From positions 558,001-622,000 of the forward strand of contig NZ_QJOW01000001.1 of assembly GCF_009184545.1 (NCBI RefSeq): DNA of 64,000 nt, given 5' to 3'. Positions 1,720-57,297 of this stretch are shown in pieces. The notes beneath the pieces were generated by a model. That model was not told the origin of the DNA, ran no database searches, and was given only the letters and a program-made list of their open reading frames with translations. The first letter of the stretch is position 1; every line of letters starts with the position of its first letter. The stretch is from Halosegnis rubeus. GTDB lineage: Archaea > Halobacteriota > Halobacteria > Halobacteriales > Haloarculaceae. The translations under genes and the position numbers were made by a program.

Positions 1720-2619
1720 CTACTCCAGTGGTTCGGCGGCGTCCTGCTTCAGGAGTGGCTCGACGTTCTCGGCGGGGAGGTCCACGATGTCCTCGGCCGA
1801 GAGGTCGTACGAGCGTTCGTCCACGCCGAACACCTCACCCACGTCACGCGTGATGCGGACGGTAGTGCGGTCGACGCTCGGCGACTCGCCGGACTCGTCA
1901 GCGGCGGCAGTGTCGTCCGCACCGGCGGCATCGGCCGTCGTGCGCGTGGCGGGCGTGCGGTCGCCCGCGGCCGCCTCGGAACCGGTGTCGTCGCCATCGC
2001 CCATCATGTCCGCGGCGCTCACCTCACCACTCGCCCTGGCATCGGCTGGCGTGTCCGGCGGTGCGGGCGGCGCGTCGTCGGTGTCGGGCGTCGGGTCCAA
2101 CCCGAGTTCGGCGGCGGCACTCGGCTCCGGCGCGGGGTCGTCGCTCGCCGGCGTGTCGGTCGGATTCGGCGTCGGCTCCGATTCGCTCGGCTCCGTCACC
2201 GGTTCGCGCGAACAGGAGATTCCTGACCCGTCGCCTTCGAGCACGCCGTTGAGAACGTGTTCGCGGCTCTGCTCGATACGCTCGACCAGCGTCGAGAACA
2301 GCTCGCGCTCCTCGTCGGTCAGCCCGTTCTCGTCGGTCGGCATCCCGGCGGCGGCGATAGAGGCCATCTTGACCACCTTGCCGACGCGGCGCTCGTAAAT
2401 CGCCTCGACGGTTGATTTTGCCGTCTCGATGTCGTCCGAGAGCCGCCGCACCTCCGGCGAGGAGAAGGGATCGTCCGCGCGTTCCGCGGCGCGGTCGCGC
2501 TCGCGGGTCAGCTCCTGGATGAACTCCCCCACGTCCTGATAGAAGCTGGGGCGGAGATTCTGCAGGCTACTCGCCTGTCGTTCCCTGCTCTGGATGGATT
2601 GGAGCTCGTCGAGATTCAT
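1720..2619 (-). CDS. GINS complex subunit (Gins51/Sld5-type), DNA replication
   Basis: Component of the archaeal GINS complex, which joins MCM and the Cdc45/RecJ-like factor in the replicative CMG helicase and contacts primase. The 299-residue protein starts MNLDELQSIQ; residues 1-130 form the helical A domain, 140-240 are an acidic, Pro/Ala/Thr-rich linker, and the last 55 residues (from TTVRITRDVG to the C-terminus) look like the small B domain ending EPLLKQDAAEPLE. The ATG overlaps the priS stop by ATGA, so the two are translationally coupled, as known for haloarchaeal priS-GINS pairs. A longer open frame runs upstream inside priS but is an overlap artefact. The linker is longer than in non-halophilic homologues. 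Confidence 0.88.
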   Translation of the reverse strand: MNLDELQSIQSRERQASSLQNLRPSFYQDVGEFIQELTRERDRAAERADDPFSSPEVRRLSDDIETAKSTVEAIYERRVGKVVKMASIAAAGMPTDENGLTDEERELFSTLVERIEQSREHVLNGVLEGDGSGISCSREPVTEPSESEPTPNPTDTPASDDPAPEPSAAAELGLDPTPDTDDAPPAPPDTPADARASGEVSAADMMGDGDDTGSEAAAGDRTPATRTTADAAGADDTAAADESGESPSVDRTTVRITRDVGEVFGVDERSYDLSAEDIVDLPAENVEPLLKQDAAEPLE

Positions 2620-30996: not shown

Positions 30997-31045
30997 CCCC
31001 ACCCTACTTCGCTCAGTCTGACGACTTCGCTCGTTGAGGGTGGGG
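30997..31045 (-). ncRNA. Right-end hairpin, likely 3' scaffold of an omega/sot guide RNA
   Basis: On the minus strand CCCCACCCT (31045-31037) pairs perfectly with AGGGTGGGG (31005-30997) around a 31-nt loop that includes the tnpB stop. IS1341-type elements of Halobacterium express sense-overlapping RNAs from this position, and TnpB omega RNAs have their guide directly beyond the right end; the candidate guide here starts near 30990. Confidence 0.55.
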
Positions 31046-32269
31046 CTTGTCCGTGAACTCGGTCTCGAACCCGTCCGGGTGGGCAGTAAATCCGCCACTC
31101 GGCGTCACCGTTCCAGACTTCAGGGCAAGCTGACTGTTGCCCGTCCGCCGAGACGACTGTTGGCCCCGACGGACGTACCGCATACCGATGTTTTTCGCCG
31201 CATTGTAGTCCGCGTTCGCTTCCGACTCGCACTTCTGACAGCAGAAATCGTTTCGATTCGGGCGATTCTCGTCGGCTGTGAAGCCACACTCGGCGCACCG
31301 TTTCGACGTGTACGCCGACCCGACTTGTTTCACCGAAACGCCGACCGCTTCGGCTTTGTACTCGACTTGTTCGTACAGCATTCGGAATGCCCACTTGTGG
31401 CCCCACGACGCACCCGTGCGGTCGCGGATGTCGGTCAAATCCTCGAACGCTATTACGTCGCACTCGTATCGGAGTGCTTCGTCTACGATGGCGTTCGACG
31501 CTTGGTGGAGTACGTCGCGGATATACCGGAGTTCGCGGCCACTCGACCGTTCGAGTGTTCGGTGGGCGCTTCGCGTCCCGGTCTGTTGGAGTCCGGCGCG
31601 TACCTTCTCGAACTCGCGGAGGTCGTGGGTTACCTCTCGTCCGCTAACGAAGGAGGCGGTGCTGGTGACGGCGAGGTTTTCGATACCGAGGTCAACCCCG
31701 AGGACCGTTCCGTCCTCGGCGGTGTTGCGCTCGGTATCGGTCTTGTGACGGCGGAAGCCGATGTGCAAGAAGTAGTTGCCATCACGGGCAGTGAGCGTGC
31801 TTTCCGTGACGCTCCACTCATCTGAGTCGAGGTACTGCCGTTGGTAGCCATCGTCGGCATCGGGAAGGGCAAGCGAACACCGGACCCGACTCTCCGTGGT
31901 GGAGAGAGAAACTGTGTCGTCATCGAACAGCGTCATTGTCCGGGTGTCGTACTTCACCGTGGGTGCGGTGAAAGTCGGCTTGCTGATCTTCTTGCCGTTG
32001 GACCGGCGTTCGAGACAGCCGGTGATAGCTTGTGCGGCTTGGTGGGTGGCGAGAATCGCGTGCTGACTCCCGAGGCCAGTTTGCTCACGCACGTCGTCGT
32101 AGGCGAGGGGCTGTACGTCGCTCTTGGCGTTGCACTTGCCCCACGCCATGTCGGTGGCGAGCTGGCAACCACGCTTCCACTCAGAGATGGTTTCCTCAAG
32201 CAACTCGCGTTGCTTACCATCTACTGAGAGTCGGGTGATTGCTGTCCGACGCACGTAGTCGTCTGCCAC
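31013..32269 (-). CDS. tnpB: TnpB, RNA-guided endonuclease-type protein
   Basis: A 418-residue TnpB of the IS200/IS605 superfamily, ancestor-type of Cas12; characterised relatives cut DNA under guidance of an RNA from the element end. The RuvC triad is intact: D193 (GVDLGIENLA), E276 (IAFEDLTD) and D354 (NADYNAAKN). The zinc ribbon has C325/C328 and C344/C347, with an additional C343. Length is normal, with no frameshift. Translation starts at GTG 29 bp from a strong TATA box, so the gene looks expressed. The last codons lie inside the right-end hairpin. Confidence 0.93.
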   Translation of the reverse strand: MADDYVRRTAITRLSVDGKQRELLEETISEWKRGCQLATDMAWGKCNAKSDVQPLAYDDVREQTGLGSQHAILATHQAAQAITGCLERRSNGKKISKPTFTAPTVKYDTRTMTLFDDDTVSLSTTESRVRCSLALPDADDGYQRQYLDSDEWSVTESTLTARDGNYFLHIGFRRHKTDTERNTAEDGTVLGVDLGIENLAVTSTASFVSGREVTHDLREFEKVRAGLQQTGTRSAHRTLERSSGRELRYIRDVLHQASNAIVDEALRYECDVIAFEDLTDIRDRTGASWGHKWAFRMLYEQVEYKAEAVGVSVKQVGSAYTSKRCAECGFTADENRPNRNDFCCQKCESEANADYNAAKNIGMRYVRRGQQSSRRTGNSQLALKSGTVTPSGGFTAHPDGFETEFTDKPHPQRAKSSD

Positions 32270-36969: not shown

Positions 36970-37397
36970 CTACTCGTGGACGTGGCGAACGACTAACACG
37001 TCGTAGCTGTCGCTGCCGATGACGGGGAAGGCGACGGAGCCGACGGCGTTCATCTGGTGGCCGGCGTTCTCACTGCCGACCACGTCCGGGTCGAGGTCGC
37101 GGACCAGCCGACGGAGCCGCGACCCGATGGCTCCCGACGAGGCGTGGTGCCCGACGCGGAGTGGCTCGAACGACGCCGCGGATGCGAGCGACGCCGCCTC
37201 CTCGCGGGCACTGTCTGCGACGGTCTCCAGCTCGAAGGACTCGTTCTCGCCGAGCCATCCGCGCTTGCGGGCGAACGGTCGCCGTCCGGAATGGCCGTCG
37301 CGACGGTGATGTCGTCGGTGGCGTGTGCCATCGACCGCACCCGTCGGACCGCCTCCTCGCTGAGTCGCGTCCCGTCGAACGCAACGAAATAGTGCAT
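36970..37397 (-). pseudogene. Universal stress protein, frameshifted
   Basis: Two frames together spell one UspA-like protein. The first begins MHYFVAFDGTRLSEEAVRR and runs to about DGDRSP; the second picks up as ARKRGWLGENESFELETVAD and continues to the stop with VGHHASSGAIGSRLRRL, the ATP-loop region and VLVVRHVHE. One base restored near 37271-37276 (minus CGT-TCG to CGT-TTC-G) gives DRFARKRGW and a continuous 142-residue protein, since 428+1 is a multiple of three. The loop also reads DVVGSENAG, perhaps two residues short. A TATA box remains, so it is a recent lesion or a sequencing error. Confidence 0.82.
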
Positions 37398-37420
37398 ACA
37401 CGAGGTTAGGCCGGTCGAGA

Positions 37421-37428
37421 AATAAATC
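37421..37428 (-). promoter_or_regulatory. TATA box of the frameshifted usp gene
   Basis: GATTTATT on the minus strand about 27 bp before the ATG at 37397; the promoter is intact even though the reading frame is broken. Confidence 0.6.
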
Positions 37429-37469
37429 GTTGTCCAAGCGACAACTGTGGGGTTGGCGTCGAGAGAAAG

Positions 37470-37544
37470 TAGCGGGAAGTAGATTTGAACTACCGATCTC
37501 CGGGTTATGAGCCCGGCGGAATCTCCTGGCTATCCTATCCCGCT
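37470..37544 (-). tRNA. Initiator tRNA-Met (CAU)
   Basis: 75-nt cloverleaf on the minus strand. Acceptor stem AGCGGGA pairs with TCCCGCT, leaving discriminator A; the anticodon stem-loop is CCGGG-CTCATAA-CCCGG with CAU; the T loop contains GTTCAAATC. The A1-U72 pair and the GGG/CCC anticodon stem mark the initiator. No intron and no encoded CCA. CCCTTATCC at 37568-37576 is a plausible promoter element. Confidence 0.93.
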
Positions 37545-37602
37545 ACCTCCTCGTATTCGAGGCGTTCGGATAAGGGTTGCCTTTCGTCACGCCGGATGGG
37601 GA

Positions 37603-53968: not shown

Positions 53969-54289
53969 ATGGCTGTACTCGACGACCGACGGCTGTGGTG
54001 GCTCTCGGGGGGACTGGTGTTCGTCTTGCTCGCCGGCCTGAGCGTGACCGCCGTCGGTCTCCTCCGGCTCGTGGGCACATTCGCCGGCGACCCGACGCCC
54101 GGAATGGTGTTTTCCGTCGTCGTTCCGTATCTCGTCGGGCTGCTCGTGCTCGCCGTCGTCGGGATTGGAATGTTCGCGTGGCTGGTCCTGCTGCTCGCCC
54201 GCCACGCCAGCGACGAGTTCGAGTCCCGACGACTCCGGGAGGTGTCAGAGCGTGCCGCCGAGAGTGAGGTCGTGAAGCTGCTCCGGTGA
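53969..54289 (+). CDS. Small two-helix membrane protein
   Basis: A 106-residue protein with two membrane helices, GGLVFVLLAGLSVTAVGLL and YLVGLLVLAVVGIGMFAWLV, and a charged C-terminal cytosolic helix (DEFESRRLREVSERAAESEV). It starts 32 bp after purN-purH, past a T-run that may terminate the latter. I do not recognise the family and see no motif. Confidence 0.66.
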   Translation: MAVLDDRRLWWLSGGLVFVLLAGLSVTAVGLLRLVGTFAGDPTPGMVFSVVVPYLVGLLVLAVVGIGMFAWLVLLLARHASDEFESRRLREVSERAAESEVVKLLR

Positions 54290-54897
54290 GGCTGGGTCTG
54301 GCTTTGGATACTGTCTCTGGTCTCTTCTTCTGGGGTGCTTGGATGGCCTGAGTGTGTCCGGCCGTGTCGCGGTCTTGCCGGCGGTTGCACCGCCGGCTGC
54401 CCGGGAGAGCGTCGCTCGTTCCCGATAGCGGCCACGGACCCGACCGAGTGAACGCGACACACCAGCCACTTTCAGCCCCCCGAACCACCCACGAGCCTCC
54501 CCAGCCGACTCATTCGTTTCACTCACTCGTCCACTGTCAGAGCAAGCGCTGACAAACCGTCGCTCGGTGCCCTCGCGACGACCTCGCGCTGACTCGCGCG
54601 CACAGGGCGCGCTCGGACCACGCCACCGCCTCGAGTCACTCGATTAAGCAACCGGGGCGGTGGCCTGACGCACCGCTCGCCGTGCGAGCGTGTGCGTCGT
54701 GGGGAACGGTTGGTGCGGTGCGGTTTCCCCGAGGCCAAGCAATCGGAGTGGTCGCGGTACTGTCAGAATCGAAGTCATCAGCGCGGTACTGTCGAAACCG
54801 AAGCCAAACACGTACAGTCCCACTGTCACACGAAAATAATCCAGACACAGATGCCCGTCTCCGACACGCCTAAACACGCGCCCGAACGACCACGAGT
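54290..54897. other. 608-bp structured non-coding region upstream of folCP
   Basis: No credible coding frame is seen. It holds three strong hairpins: GCCGGCGG-TTGCA-CCGCCGGC (54377-54397), GCGCGC-ACAGG-GCGCGC (54595-54611) and a 12-bp stem with one bulge, ACGCACCGCTCG with CGAGCGTGTGCGT, at 54668-54697. Two imperfect direct repeats of 29 bp starting CGCGGTACTGTC (54753 and 54782) and a palindrome ACAGT-CCC-ACTGT (54814-54826) lie close before folCP. It resembles interspersed haloarchaeal intergenic elements, from memory only. Confidence 0.6.
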
Positions 54898-57297
54898 ATG
54901 CAGTATCACGAGGCGGCGACGTGGCTGTTCGACCTCCGGCGACACTCCCCCCGCACGGGCGTCGAACACACGCGTCACCTCCTCGATTCGCTCGACTCGC
55001 CCGACGAGAGCTACGTCGTCGTCCAGATCGCCGGCTCGAACGGCAAAGGCTCGACCGCCGCACTGCTCGACCGCGTCCTCCGCGAGGCCGGTCTCGACGT
55101 GGGGCTGTACACCTCACCGCACCTCTCGGACGTGCGCGAACGCGTACAGGTCAACGGCCGGAAGATGCCGAAACGCGCGCTCGCCGAGTACGTCGAAACG
55201 GCGAAATCGTACGTTACCGACCGCGGGGCCGCCGGAGAGTCGCCGACCTTCTTCGAGACCGTCACGGGAATGGCGCTGTGGGAGTTCGACAGACAGGAAG
55301 TCGACGTAGCAATCCTCGAAGTCGGTATCGGCGGGCAACACGACGCCACCTCCGCGACGACTCCGGTCGCCAGCGCAGTCGCGAGCGTCACGCTGGAACA
55401 CGCCGACCTGCTCGGCGACACCGAGGCAGAAATCGCACGGGACAAGGCCCACGTCGCGACTGACCGGCCCCTCGTCACCGCGACCACGGGCGAGGCGCTC
55501 GACGCGGTTCGCGACCACACCGACGGCAACGTCCACACCGTCGGCGCGGCGGGAAGCGACGTGACCACGCGTTATGAGGGCCGCGTCGGTATCGAAGGGA
55601 AAGTCTCACTCGCCGGTCCCGACTGGACGGTCGAGACGCGACTCGCGATGCTCGGCGCACACCAAGCAAAGAACGCCGGCGTCGCGGCCGCCCTCGCCCG
55701 ACAGGTCGGTGAGGAACTCGACGTCCCCGTGACGACCGACGACCTCGCGCGCGGACTCCGGAGCGCCCACTGGCCCGGCCGATTCGAGCTGATGGGCCGA
55801 GAGCCGTTGGTCGTGCTCGACGGCGCACACAACCCCGGTAGCTGCGAGACGCTCACCGACACGCTCGGGGCGTTCGACTACGACGACTGTCACCTCGTCG
55901 TCGGCGCGATGAGCGACAAGGACCACGCCGGCATGGCAGCTGCCCTCCCTACTGGTGACGAAATCTACACCTGTCGTCCCGACTTCACGCGAGCCGAACG
56001 CCCGGAGGTGTTGGCGGAGTCGTTCCCGGACGCGACGCCGTTCGACACCGTCGGCGCGGCCGTCGACACCGCCCTCGACGCTGCTGATTCGTCGGATGCG
56101 GTCGTGGTCTGTGGCTCGCTGTTCGTCGTCGCCGAGGCCAGAGAGCGCTGGACCGCGACACCGACGCCGAAGCAAGTTCGCGACGCCGACGACGCCCGCA
56201 CGGCCCTCGACGGGGCGGACGTACCAGCGTCCGACCAGCACCCGGACGAGATAGTCCGCGAGACGCGGACACTGACCGTTCGCCCGGCGCAGGCGCGGCG
56301 ACTCGACACCGCGATGGCAGCCGTCGGCGGAAGCTGTTCGGTGTCGGGACTCGACGCGCAGCCCCGCGAACCGGTCTCGGTCGTCCTGTCCGGCACGACC
56401 GCGGAGTTCGAGACGCTCGATGCGCGACTCCGCGCCGACGACCCCGTGCTCGCCAACCGCGTCGCCGTCGCCGACCCCGAGACCGACGCCGACTACCCGT
56501 GGACCGACCGTACCGCAGTCATGGGAATTCTGAACGTCACGCCCGACTCCTTCCACGACGGCGGCGAGTACGACGCCGTCGACGCTGCGGTCGAGCGCGC
56601 CGAGGAAATCGTTGCCGAGGGTGCAGACATCGTCGACATCGGCGGGGAGTCGACGCGTCCGGGCGCAGAGCCGGTCCCCGTCGACGAGGAGATCGACCGG
56701 CTCGTCCCGGTCGTCGAGCGCATCGGCGACCTCGACGCGCTCATTTCCGTCGACACCCGACGCGCCGAGACCGCACGCGCGGCCCTCGATGCCGGCGCTG
56801 ACATCATCAACGACGTGTCCGGGCTTGCCGACCCGGGGATGCGCTTTGTCGCCGCCGAGTACGACGTACCGGTCGTCGTGATGCACTCCATCAACGCCCC
56901 CGTCGACCCCGACGTGACGGTCGAGTACGACGACGTGGTGAGTGACACGATTGCCCAGCTCCGCGAGCGCATCCTGCTCGCCGAGCGGGCCGGTCTTTCA
57001 CGTGACCAGATCATCGTCGACCCCGGTATCGGCTTCGGGAAGTCGGCAACCGAGAGCTTCGAGCTGTTAGACCGGACGGGTGAGTTCGCCGCGCTCGGCT
57101 GCCCGGTCTTGGTGGGTCACTCACACAAATCGCTGTTCGCGCGTGTCGAGCGAGAGACCGGCGACCGGTACGAGGCGACCGTCGCCGGCAGCGCTATCGC
57201 CGCCGACCGCGGGGCCGACATCGTGCGCGTCCACGATGTGGCGGGGAACGTCGCCGCCGTCCGCGTCGCGGAAGAGACCCGCACTCAGGGCTCGTGA
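54898..57297 (+). CDS. folCP: Bifunctional folylpolyglutamate synthase / dihydropteroate synthase
   Basis: A 799-residue fusion. Residues 1-430 are FolC: the P-loop QIAGSNGKGSTAALL, then TSPHLSDVRERVQVNG, EVGIGGQHDATSATTP and DGAHNPGSCE. From about 541 to 790 is FolP, dihydropteroate synthase: MGILNVTPDSFHDGGEYD, DIGGESTRPGAEPVPVDEE, DTRRAETA and LVGHSHKSLFARV. The linker (about 430-540) includes an extra region with SGTTAEFETLDAR. Known from Haloferax/Haloarcula as the route to folate in these archaea. It should supply the folate used by PurN-PurH and PanB in the window. Confidence 0.95.
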   Translation: MQYHEAATWLFDLRRHSPRTGVEHTRHLLDSLDSPDESYVVVQIAGSNGKGSTAALLDRVLREAGLDVGLYTSPHLSDVRERVQVNGRKMPKRALAEYVETAKSYVTDRGAAGESPTFFETVTGMALWEFDRQEVDVAILEVGIGGQHDATSATTPVASAVASVTLEHADLLGDTEAEIARDKAHVATDRPLVTATTGEALDAVRDHTDGNVHTVGAAGSDVTTRYEGRVGIEGKVSLAGPDWTVETRLAMLGAHQAKNAGVAAALARQVGEELDVPVTTDDLARGLRSAHWPGRFELMGREPLVVLDGAHNPGSCETLTDTLGAFDYDDCHLVVGAMSDKDHAGMAAALPTGDEIYTCRPDFTRAERPEVLAESFPDATPFDTVGAAVDTALDAADSSDAVVVCGSLFVVAEARERWTATPTPKQVRDADDARTALDGADVPASDQHPDEIVRETRTLTVRPAQARRLDTAMAAVGGSCSVSGLDAQPREPVSVVLSGTTAEFETLDARLRADDPVLANRVAVADPETDADYPWTDRTAVMGILNVTPDSFHDGGEYDAVDAAVERAEEIVAEGADIVDIGGESTRPGAEPVPVDEEIDRLVPVVERIGDLDALISVDTRRAETARAALDAGADIINDVSGLADPGMRFVAAEYDVPVVVMHSINAPVDPDVTVEYDDVVSDTIAQLRERILLAERAGLSRDQIIVDPGIGFGKSATESFELLDRTGEFAALGCPVLVGHSHKSLFARVERETGDRYEATVAGSAIAADRGADIVRVHDVAGNVAAVRVAEETRTQGS

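Follow-up and report, generated by a model that had tools for sequence, protein, structure and literature searches.

The window analysed here, a stretch of 64,000 nucleotides of the Halosegnis rubeus genome (contig NZ_QJOW01000001.1, positions 558,001 to 622,000), contains upstream of folCP an interval of 608 bp (54290-54897) in which the ORF check of the window revealed no credible gene. On its right, folCP, recognised by a Pfam match, starts at 54898. On its left, an ORF of 106 amino acids with a membrane-like product (53969-54289, plus strand) ends at 54289; this ORF has no Pfam match and is also present in the same-genus genome G004. The preliminary description of this DNA took the interval for the longest gene-free stretch of the window, a rank that a simple home-made gene caller gave instead to 36970-37602 (633 bp, including a tRNA at 37470-37544), with the folCP interval in second place. 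The three stems proposed in the interval are all real, and their coordinates required slight correction. The first, at 54377-54397, is a perfect hairpin of 9 bp (54377-54385 / 54389-54397) and not of 8 bp; the 6-bp stem, GCGCGC-ACAGG-GCGCGC, lies at 54596-54612, shifted one base to the right of 54595-54611; and the stem given as 12 bp at 54668-54697 does have its single bulge, a T, but comprises 13 bp at 54667-54679 / 54685-54698. The stem search also yielded a further stem that had escaped the earlier account, CACGCCACCGCCTCG / CGGGGCGGTGGCCTG, with 13 of 15 positions paired (54619-54633 / 54653-54667). The region 54350-54720 folds better than its dinucleotide shuffles on both strands (z of -3.67 on the minus and -3.68 on the plus strand, 0 of 100 shuffles being as good), with folding energies of -198.4 kcal/mol for the minus and -179.3 kcal/mol for the plus strand that favour the minus strand by 19 kcal/mol.

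An interspersed repeat family had been one of the possibilities raised for this interval, to be checked by a multi-copy search, and copies were indeed found in the own genome, in the sister species and throughout the haloarchaeal order. In the own genome (2.66 Mb), 40 scored matching pieces correspond to about 20 places on contigs C6, C7, C8 and C10, and the larger pieces are 69-91% identical to the stretch. Alignment of the copies delineated a repeat unit of about 500-700 bp that consists of conserved blocks and optional hairpin modules. G004 carries many copies as well, and at several sites common to both species the flanks align closely while the inner modules differ. The phrase around 54660-54700, likened in the preliminary description to repeated haloarchaeal intergenic elements, turned out to be a true module of the family, whose two arm versions switch together. 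In this right-hand stem both arms change version jointly in all 26 copies that have the arm (three other copies lack it): an CCTGACGCAC arm is paired with GTGCGTC in 10 copies, one of them with a G.T, and CCTACCGCAC-type arms are paired with GTGCGGT-type arms in 16, two of them with mismatches. Opposite arm versions occupy the shared sites L007/L056, L012/L061 and L016/L058. When the full window-genus alignment was submitted to RNAalifold, the modules were misaligned. No near-identical pairs at different sites were encountered among the copies compared, and there is therefore no sign of recent movement. Beside one window-genus element (L014), an intact type-A element scoring 112 bits lies in inverted orientation (L014, about 1744-1889, plus strand).

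A short block of the element recurs in other families of the order, and homologues, whose absence would have spoken against the preliminary description, do exist. The strict pattern CCCCTTTCAGTCC-N(12-42)-CCTCCCCA was detected in 55 of the 293 genomes searched, representing 26 of 87 genera, with up to 43 occurrences per genome, and its reversed control gave 0 in every listed row. The covariance model R1 matched 112 of 146 genomes, spread over 44 of the 57 genera; 21 candidates were scored per genome, and R1 counts accordingly reach at most 21. Many of the listed genomes without an R1 match are small or deep-branching (families f2, f9, f11, f13, f15 and f16), and by either search related genomes can have very different copy numbers. 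When named genomes were scanned, at least 120 stretches with the pattern were returned, all with haloarchaeal titles but three; carriers include Haladaptatus, Haloarchaeobius, Haloparvum, Haloarcula, Halorussus, Halopiger, Halolamina, Natronorubrum, Halobaculum and Natrinema. The three non-haloarchaeal records (L128, L131 and L179) have no stem and were taken as chance matches; they are among the 39 of 157 motif copies dropped because no stem was recognisable. A viral origin was rejected, the strict pattern having 0 matches in viral_contigs. Outside the main element, a 28-nt string, GCGAGCGGGAGCGAAGCGACACGCGAGC, is found exactly in several genera (G029, G026 and others; for example L065-L068 and L073).

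Read in pattern orientation, the core of the element begins with GAAAGCCC, followed by arm X, inner hairpins, arm X', CCCCTTTCAGTCC and a C-rich spacer, after which come CCTCCCCA[A/G]CCGA, a short hairpin, TCCCTCGC, a second hairpin and GCGCGCGCC. Read on the strand that folds, which in the window is the minus strand, it gives GAAAGGGG, a variable stem and GGGGCTTTC. There are two inner types, one with ...GTGCTTGCGTC... and one with ...ATATC...GATAGTGG..., the second of which is also found in the window genus. Stem 1 lies near one end of the element, whose ends are approximate. Arm X varies between lineages and X' remains complementary to it: among 128 elements, admitted only when at least 9 of 12 positions were paired, 62 are paired at 12 of 12, and the mean is 11.24 Watson-Crick pairs of 12 against 3.0-3.5 when the arm is slid by 1-3 bases. 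Alignment A4 assembles 45 of the 70 non-redundant type-A elements, those with lengths from 130 to 167 nt (L202, L137 and L143, within this range, were dropped). Over its 32 pairs, 93.2% of cells are paired versus 72.9% after shuffling, changes on both sides are observed at 26 of the 32, and the covariation score is 0.500 versus 0.152 for shuffled and 0.05-0.08 for slid alignments of these 45 diverse elements. The compensatory changes that the preliminary description proposed to look for by covariance analysis are thus present in the core stem of the family. Unpaired letters are also conserved across genera, for example GAAAGGGG, YAAGNACC and GCGCAGCGAG. In L063, L130, L144, L194 and others, the 3' arm and GGGGCTTTC recur together as tandem units, at intervals of about 50-70 nt, downstream of GGGGCTTTC on the folding strand, and an TGTTGCTGACC-like tail is common to many elements.

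The stretch upstream of folCP is a decayed, mosaic copy of this order-wide haloarchaeal interspersed element. According to the copy alignment, a T/G-rich left flank (54290-54357) includes CTTGGATGGCC at 54339-54349, the remnant of a tail/GAAAGCCCC motif that sister copies still have in full. It is followed by the left arm of core stem 1, CCGGCCGTGTCGCGGTC (54358-54374), which is partly eroded; by the 9-bp hairpin at 54377-54397, an optional module within stem 1 that only some copies have; and by the right arm, GACCGAGTGAACGCGACAC plus ACCAG (54442-54465). Next comes a degraded form, CCACTTTCAGCCCCCC ... CCTCCCCAGCC (54466-54506), of the order-wide motif that reads CCCCTTTCAGTCC ... CCTCCCCA when intact. 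The stem-1 arms and this motif lie on the minus strand, as does the sole R1 match, a weak one of 22.1 bits (E 0.011) at 54450-54506; the other parts carry no strand assignment. Further to the right are an optional module of about 50 nt, CCACTGTCAGAGC..CCCTCGCGACGA (54531-54581), which is missing in L008, L014 and L016, among others, then the three stems between 54596 and 54698, and finally the right outer units (54722-54810), GGTTTCCCCGAGGCCAAGCAAT followed by two 25-nt direct repeats, CGCGGTACTGTC.., which are 84% alike and 29 nt apart from start to start. This copy has lost GAAAGCCCC and has mismatches in stem 1, and relative to R1 the greater part of the stem-1 domain is missing or has diverged. 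Comparison of the same site in G004 showed that half of the copy, 54338-54610, has been lost there and the remainder kept, and in G003 this locus lacks both the element and the gene of the small membrane-like product. At another site, where the copy of G004 is complete, G000 retains an outer part and nothing more, with the join at a short direct repeat. These two cases, the folCP copy in G004 and the remnant in G000, indicate that such copies decay via repeat-mediated deletion. The idea that the interval holds the remains of a lost gene found no support and was rejected: the window copy has no coding frame (the preliminary description had already seen no acidic one), and intact relatives elsewhere are likewise non-coding. 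Nor is the interval an RNA gene confined to a single site.

If only pairing in double-stranded DNA mattered, G.T and A.C mismatches would be expected to be equally frequent in the stem. In pattern orientation, A.C exceeds G.T by 42 to 9 in the raw counts, by 39 to 8 over unique arm pairs and by 32 to 8 events (17 lineages vs 1) after collapsing by lineage, with hand-entered lineage labels, which is the sole correction for kinship in these counts. Seen from the complementary strand, these A.C mismatches become G.U wobbles, and on that strand, the modelled one, 95 model-aligned elements have 78 G.U and 28 A.C (18 pairs vs 6). This wobble excess points to the GAAAGGGG...GGGGCTTTC strand as the one that folds, which in the window is the minus strand; the folded form may be RNA or single-stranded DNA, either of which would fit the excess. 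The inner hairpins taken alone have no strand bias (GT 7 and AC 8 in the right part, GT 1 and AC 2 in the stem-1 loop), and the right-hand stem of the window genus leans the other way, with few departures, mostly G.T in plus orientation. Arms might also be matched without any selection if template-switch correction operated in old hairpins. The arms co-replaced at orthologous sites of the sister species and the mosaic, deletion-prone nature of the hairpins would agree with such a process; neither the excess of wobbles on one strand nor the unpaired motifs conserved across genera is predicted by it, and we regard it as very improbable.

The placement of the element was analysed on 157 motif copies, of which 134 have called genes on both sides and the other 23 lie at locus edges. 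None of the 134 is inside a gene called by the home-made caller, and the orientations of the neighbouring genes (++34, --38, +-32, -+30) reveal no preference, which led us to reject a main role as terminator or promoter element. The sequence around the elements has no composition resembling that of a promoter or terminator. Inverted pairs a few hundred bases apart are common (for example L142, L109, L120, L180, L195 and L206) and thereby explain palindromic full-length forms. The suggestion of a structured RNA made in the preliminary description is half supported: there is covariation in the pairing and a preferred strand, but a dedicated promoter is not visible and copies occur in all gene orientations. 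A host-functional RNA would require each copy to be transcribed on the strand complementary to the pattern, alone or within neighbouring transcripts, and its fold to bind a protein or act in RNA processing, the many copies being explained by local action. The compensatory changes with their single-strand wobble preference, the conserved unpaired letters and the near ubiquity in the order would all be expected of such an RNA. The lack of any preference for gene orientation or of regulatory composition around the elements, the presence and absence of the element in orthologous junctions (see below) and the lack of an Rfam family argue against it, and we consider it possible but unlikely. As to the last point, Rfam 15 returned only the tRNA for the window at gathering threshold and, in a search of 15 loci that admitted E values up to 2, a single weak match below the gathering score of its family and outside the core element, so that a known RNA was rejected.

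The distribution among replicons speaks both for and against a role in the host. In a hand tally of the listed matches of 12 genomes, 0 of 85 are off the largest replicon, where about 10 would be expected by length, a concentration on the main chromosome that would favour a host RNA. Against this, 3 of the 7 listed matches of G164 lie on a second contig of 876 kb, and 37 plasmid records, each predicted to be non-mobilizable, contain a related stretch according to BLAST; among the 20 of these that were listed, the matched stretch is without annotation in 19 and annotated as a hypothetical protein in one. The same observations concern the proposal that the elements are chromosomal sites acting as DNA, that is, intergenic hairpins that would be extruded or single-stranded for control of supercoiling, replication or chromosome organisation, the strand preference reflecting exposure of one strand. 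Their strictly intergenic location, neutral to gene orientation, the concentration of listed matches on the main chromosome and the pairing kept during sequence drift are in line with it. Yet plasmids carry copies, copy numbers vary widely among related genomes and, along 8 chromosomes, the two-arc, replication-linked orientation bias that had looked suggestive by eye was not borne out by a Fisher test (p 0.44; positions entered by hand, with 13 of the 17 matches of G206 and without a few very short G004 matches). The proposal is in our judgement improbable.

Presence and absence of the element were compared at the junction between cbiG (called by Pfam PF01890/PF11760) and an upstream gene that we read as cobalamin methyltransferase-like (cbiF-like). 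In 7 of 15 Haloarcula genomes the element lies between the two genes and adds 349 to 430 bp, whereas in the other 8 the genes abut or overlap; a sixteenth Haloarcula genome has no cbiG match. At 16 of 18 other loci of the taxonomic family, the extra sequence does not exceed 75 bases. In the remaining two, L258 and L261, from two further genera including that of the window, the element occupies this junction too, oriented as in Haloarcula. The carriers do not form one clade in a weakly supported tree from which L244 was left out. Because of this and of the site shared with two other genera, insertion and recurrent clean loss are indistinguishable here: insertion followed by recurrent loss and recurrent insertion both fit. 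In this single case of filled and empty sites the junction is ambiguous, and neither a target duplication nor a precise boundary emerged from it.

Within a genome the stems differ on average at 2.17 of 12 positions, versus 5.34 between genomes, and 0 of 500 shuffles gave a value as low. This likeness within genomes, together with the failure to find near-identical pairs at different sites, fits an old element that has probably been homogenised by exchange between copies, and whose folded strand may once have been the mobilised form. The explanation that we favour, holding it with as much doubt as confidence, is that the folCP stretch is a decayed copy of a non-autonomous, order-wide element spread by a trans-acting enzyme that recognises a folded single strand, either RNA or ssDNA. 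Both the non-autonomy and the recognition of a single-stranded fold are what we infer from the features of the copies. The putative enzyme would recognise the fold by structure rather than by sequence; selection on the fold would then produce compensating changes while the letters of the stem come to differ among lineages, the stems of each genome would be homogenised by exchange between copies, and deletions between short direct repeats would erode old copies such as the one at folCP. No host function is claimed for the element at folCP under this explanation. Against it stand the lack of signs of recent movement, the ambiguity at the cbiF-cbiG junction and the absence of a placed target duplication or boundary, the element-bearing genomes without a Y1 transposase, the rarity of the element at TnpA/TnpB loci, the missing orientation bias along chromosomes, the inner hairpins without strand bias, the contrary lean of the right-hand stem and the lack of strict-pattern matches in viral_contigs. 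A bolder version, which strikes us as rather far-fetched, would make it an RNA-mobilised element, an archaeal counterpart of SINEs with tens or more copies in most haloarchaea: a structured transcript would arise from the strand complementary to the pattern, its lineage-specific stem co-evolving with a putative reverse transcriptase or integrase, and the tandem 3' tail units would be the mark of insertion. Were the favoured explanation true, a large share of haloarchaeal intergenic DNA would belong to a single ancient family of structured elements, unmarked in present annotation, and much unannotated hairpin-rich sequence would be explained. The R1 covariance model is a ready tool for masking or studying the element, and the cbiF-cbiG junction in culturable Haloarcula makes its movement and its effects on a cobalamin gene pair testable.

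As candidates for the enzyme, transposases of the IS200/IS605 type were searched for. Of 14 element-bearing genomes, 5, among them the one richest in the element, have no Y1 transposase (PF01797), and the own genome has 18 TnpB-like matches and only 2 Y1 TnpA matches. The element is rare at 57 TnpA/TnpB loci, with the strict stem at 1 and R1 at E below 1e-5 at 2; this rarity and the hosts without Y1 do not support the idea that it represents IS605 ends. The window itself contains an IS605-type TnpB-like gene (31013-32203, minus strand; Pfam match G000:C6:589187-589387).

No published description of the element was found in the open-licence literature (PubMed Central), sequence strings included. 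It was compared with known kinds of repeats. The REP/BIME sequences of bacteria are multi-copy intergenic palindromes in mosaic arrays, with a strand-specific fold, and are mobilised by RAYT Y1 transposases. The element is likewise multi-copy, intergenic, palindromic and mosaic, and folds on one strand; in contrast to them, it is longer (about 300-700 nt) and archaeal, its stem covaries instead of being fixed, and several of its hosts (5 of 14) lack a Y1 gene. MITEs are short, dispersed and non-autonomous, with terminal inverted repeats and a target duplication. The element is also short and dispersed, and has been proposed here to be non-autonomous; single elements differ in not being bounded by terminal inverted repeats, although inverted pairs occur. 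A third kind, the palindrome-associated transposable elements (PATEs) of Haloquadratum, have palindromes that resemble IS605-type ends, according to their description (Dyall-Smith et al. 2011, PMC3119063), which also reports repeat-mediated deletion of the core and the use of PATE palindromes as insertion targets by other small elements. Unlike such palindromes, our element is rare at TnpA/TnpB loci, a comparison made by searching the loci, and 5 of 14 genomes that carry it have no Y1 transposase; membership among the PATEs is not established because shared IS605-type ends were not found. PATEs also have palindromes close to their termini and lack a target duplication; in the element, stem 1 lies near one end, and the single comparison of filled and empty sites has an ambiguous junction. 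Compared by description, PATEs are nevertheless the nearest described kind: both are non-coding, palindrome-bearing, heterogeneous and haloarchaeal, the element is too short for a transposase (0 of 134 copies are in a called gene), and repeat-mediated deletion of the core appears in both, in our case at the site that differs between G000 and G004 and in the folCP copy of G004.
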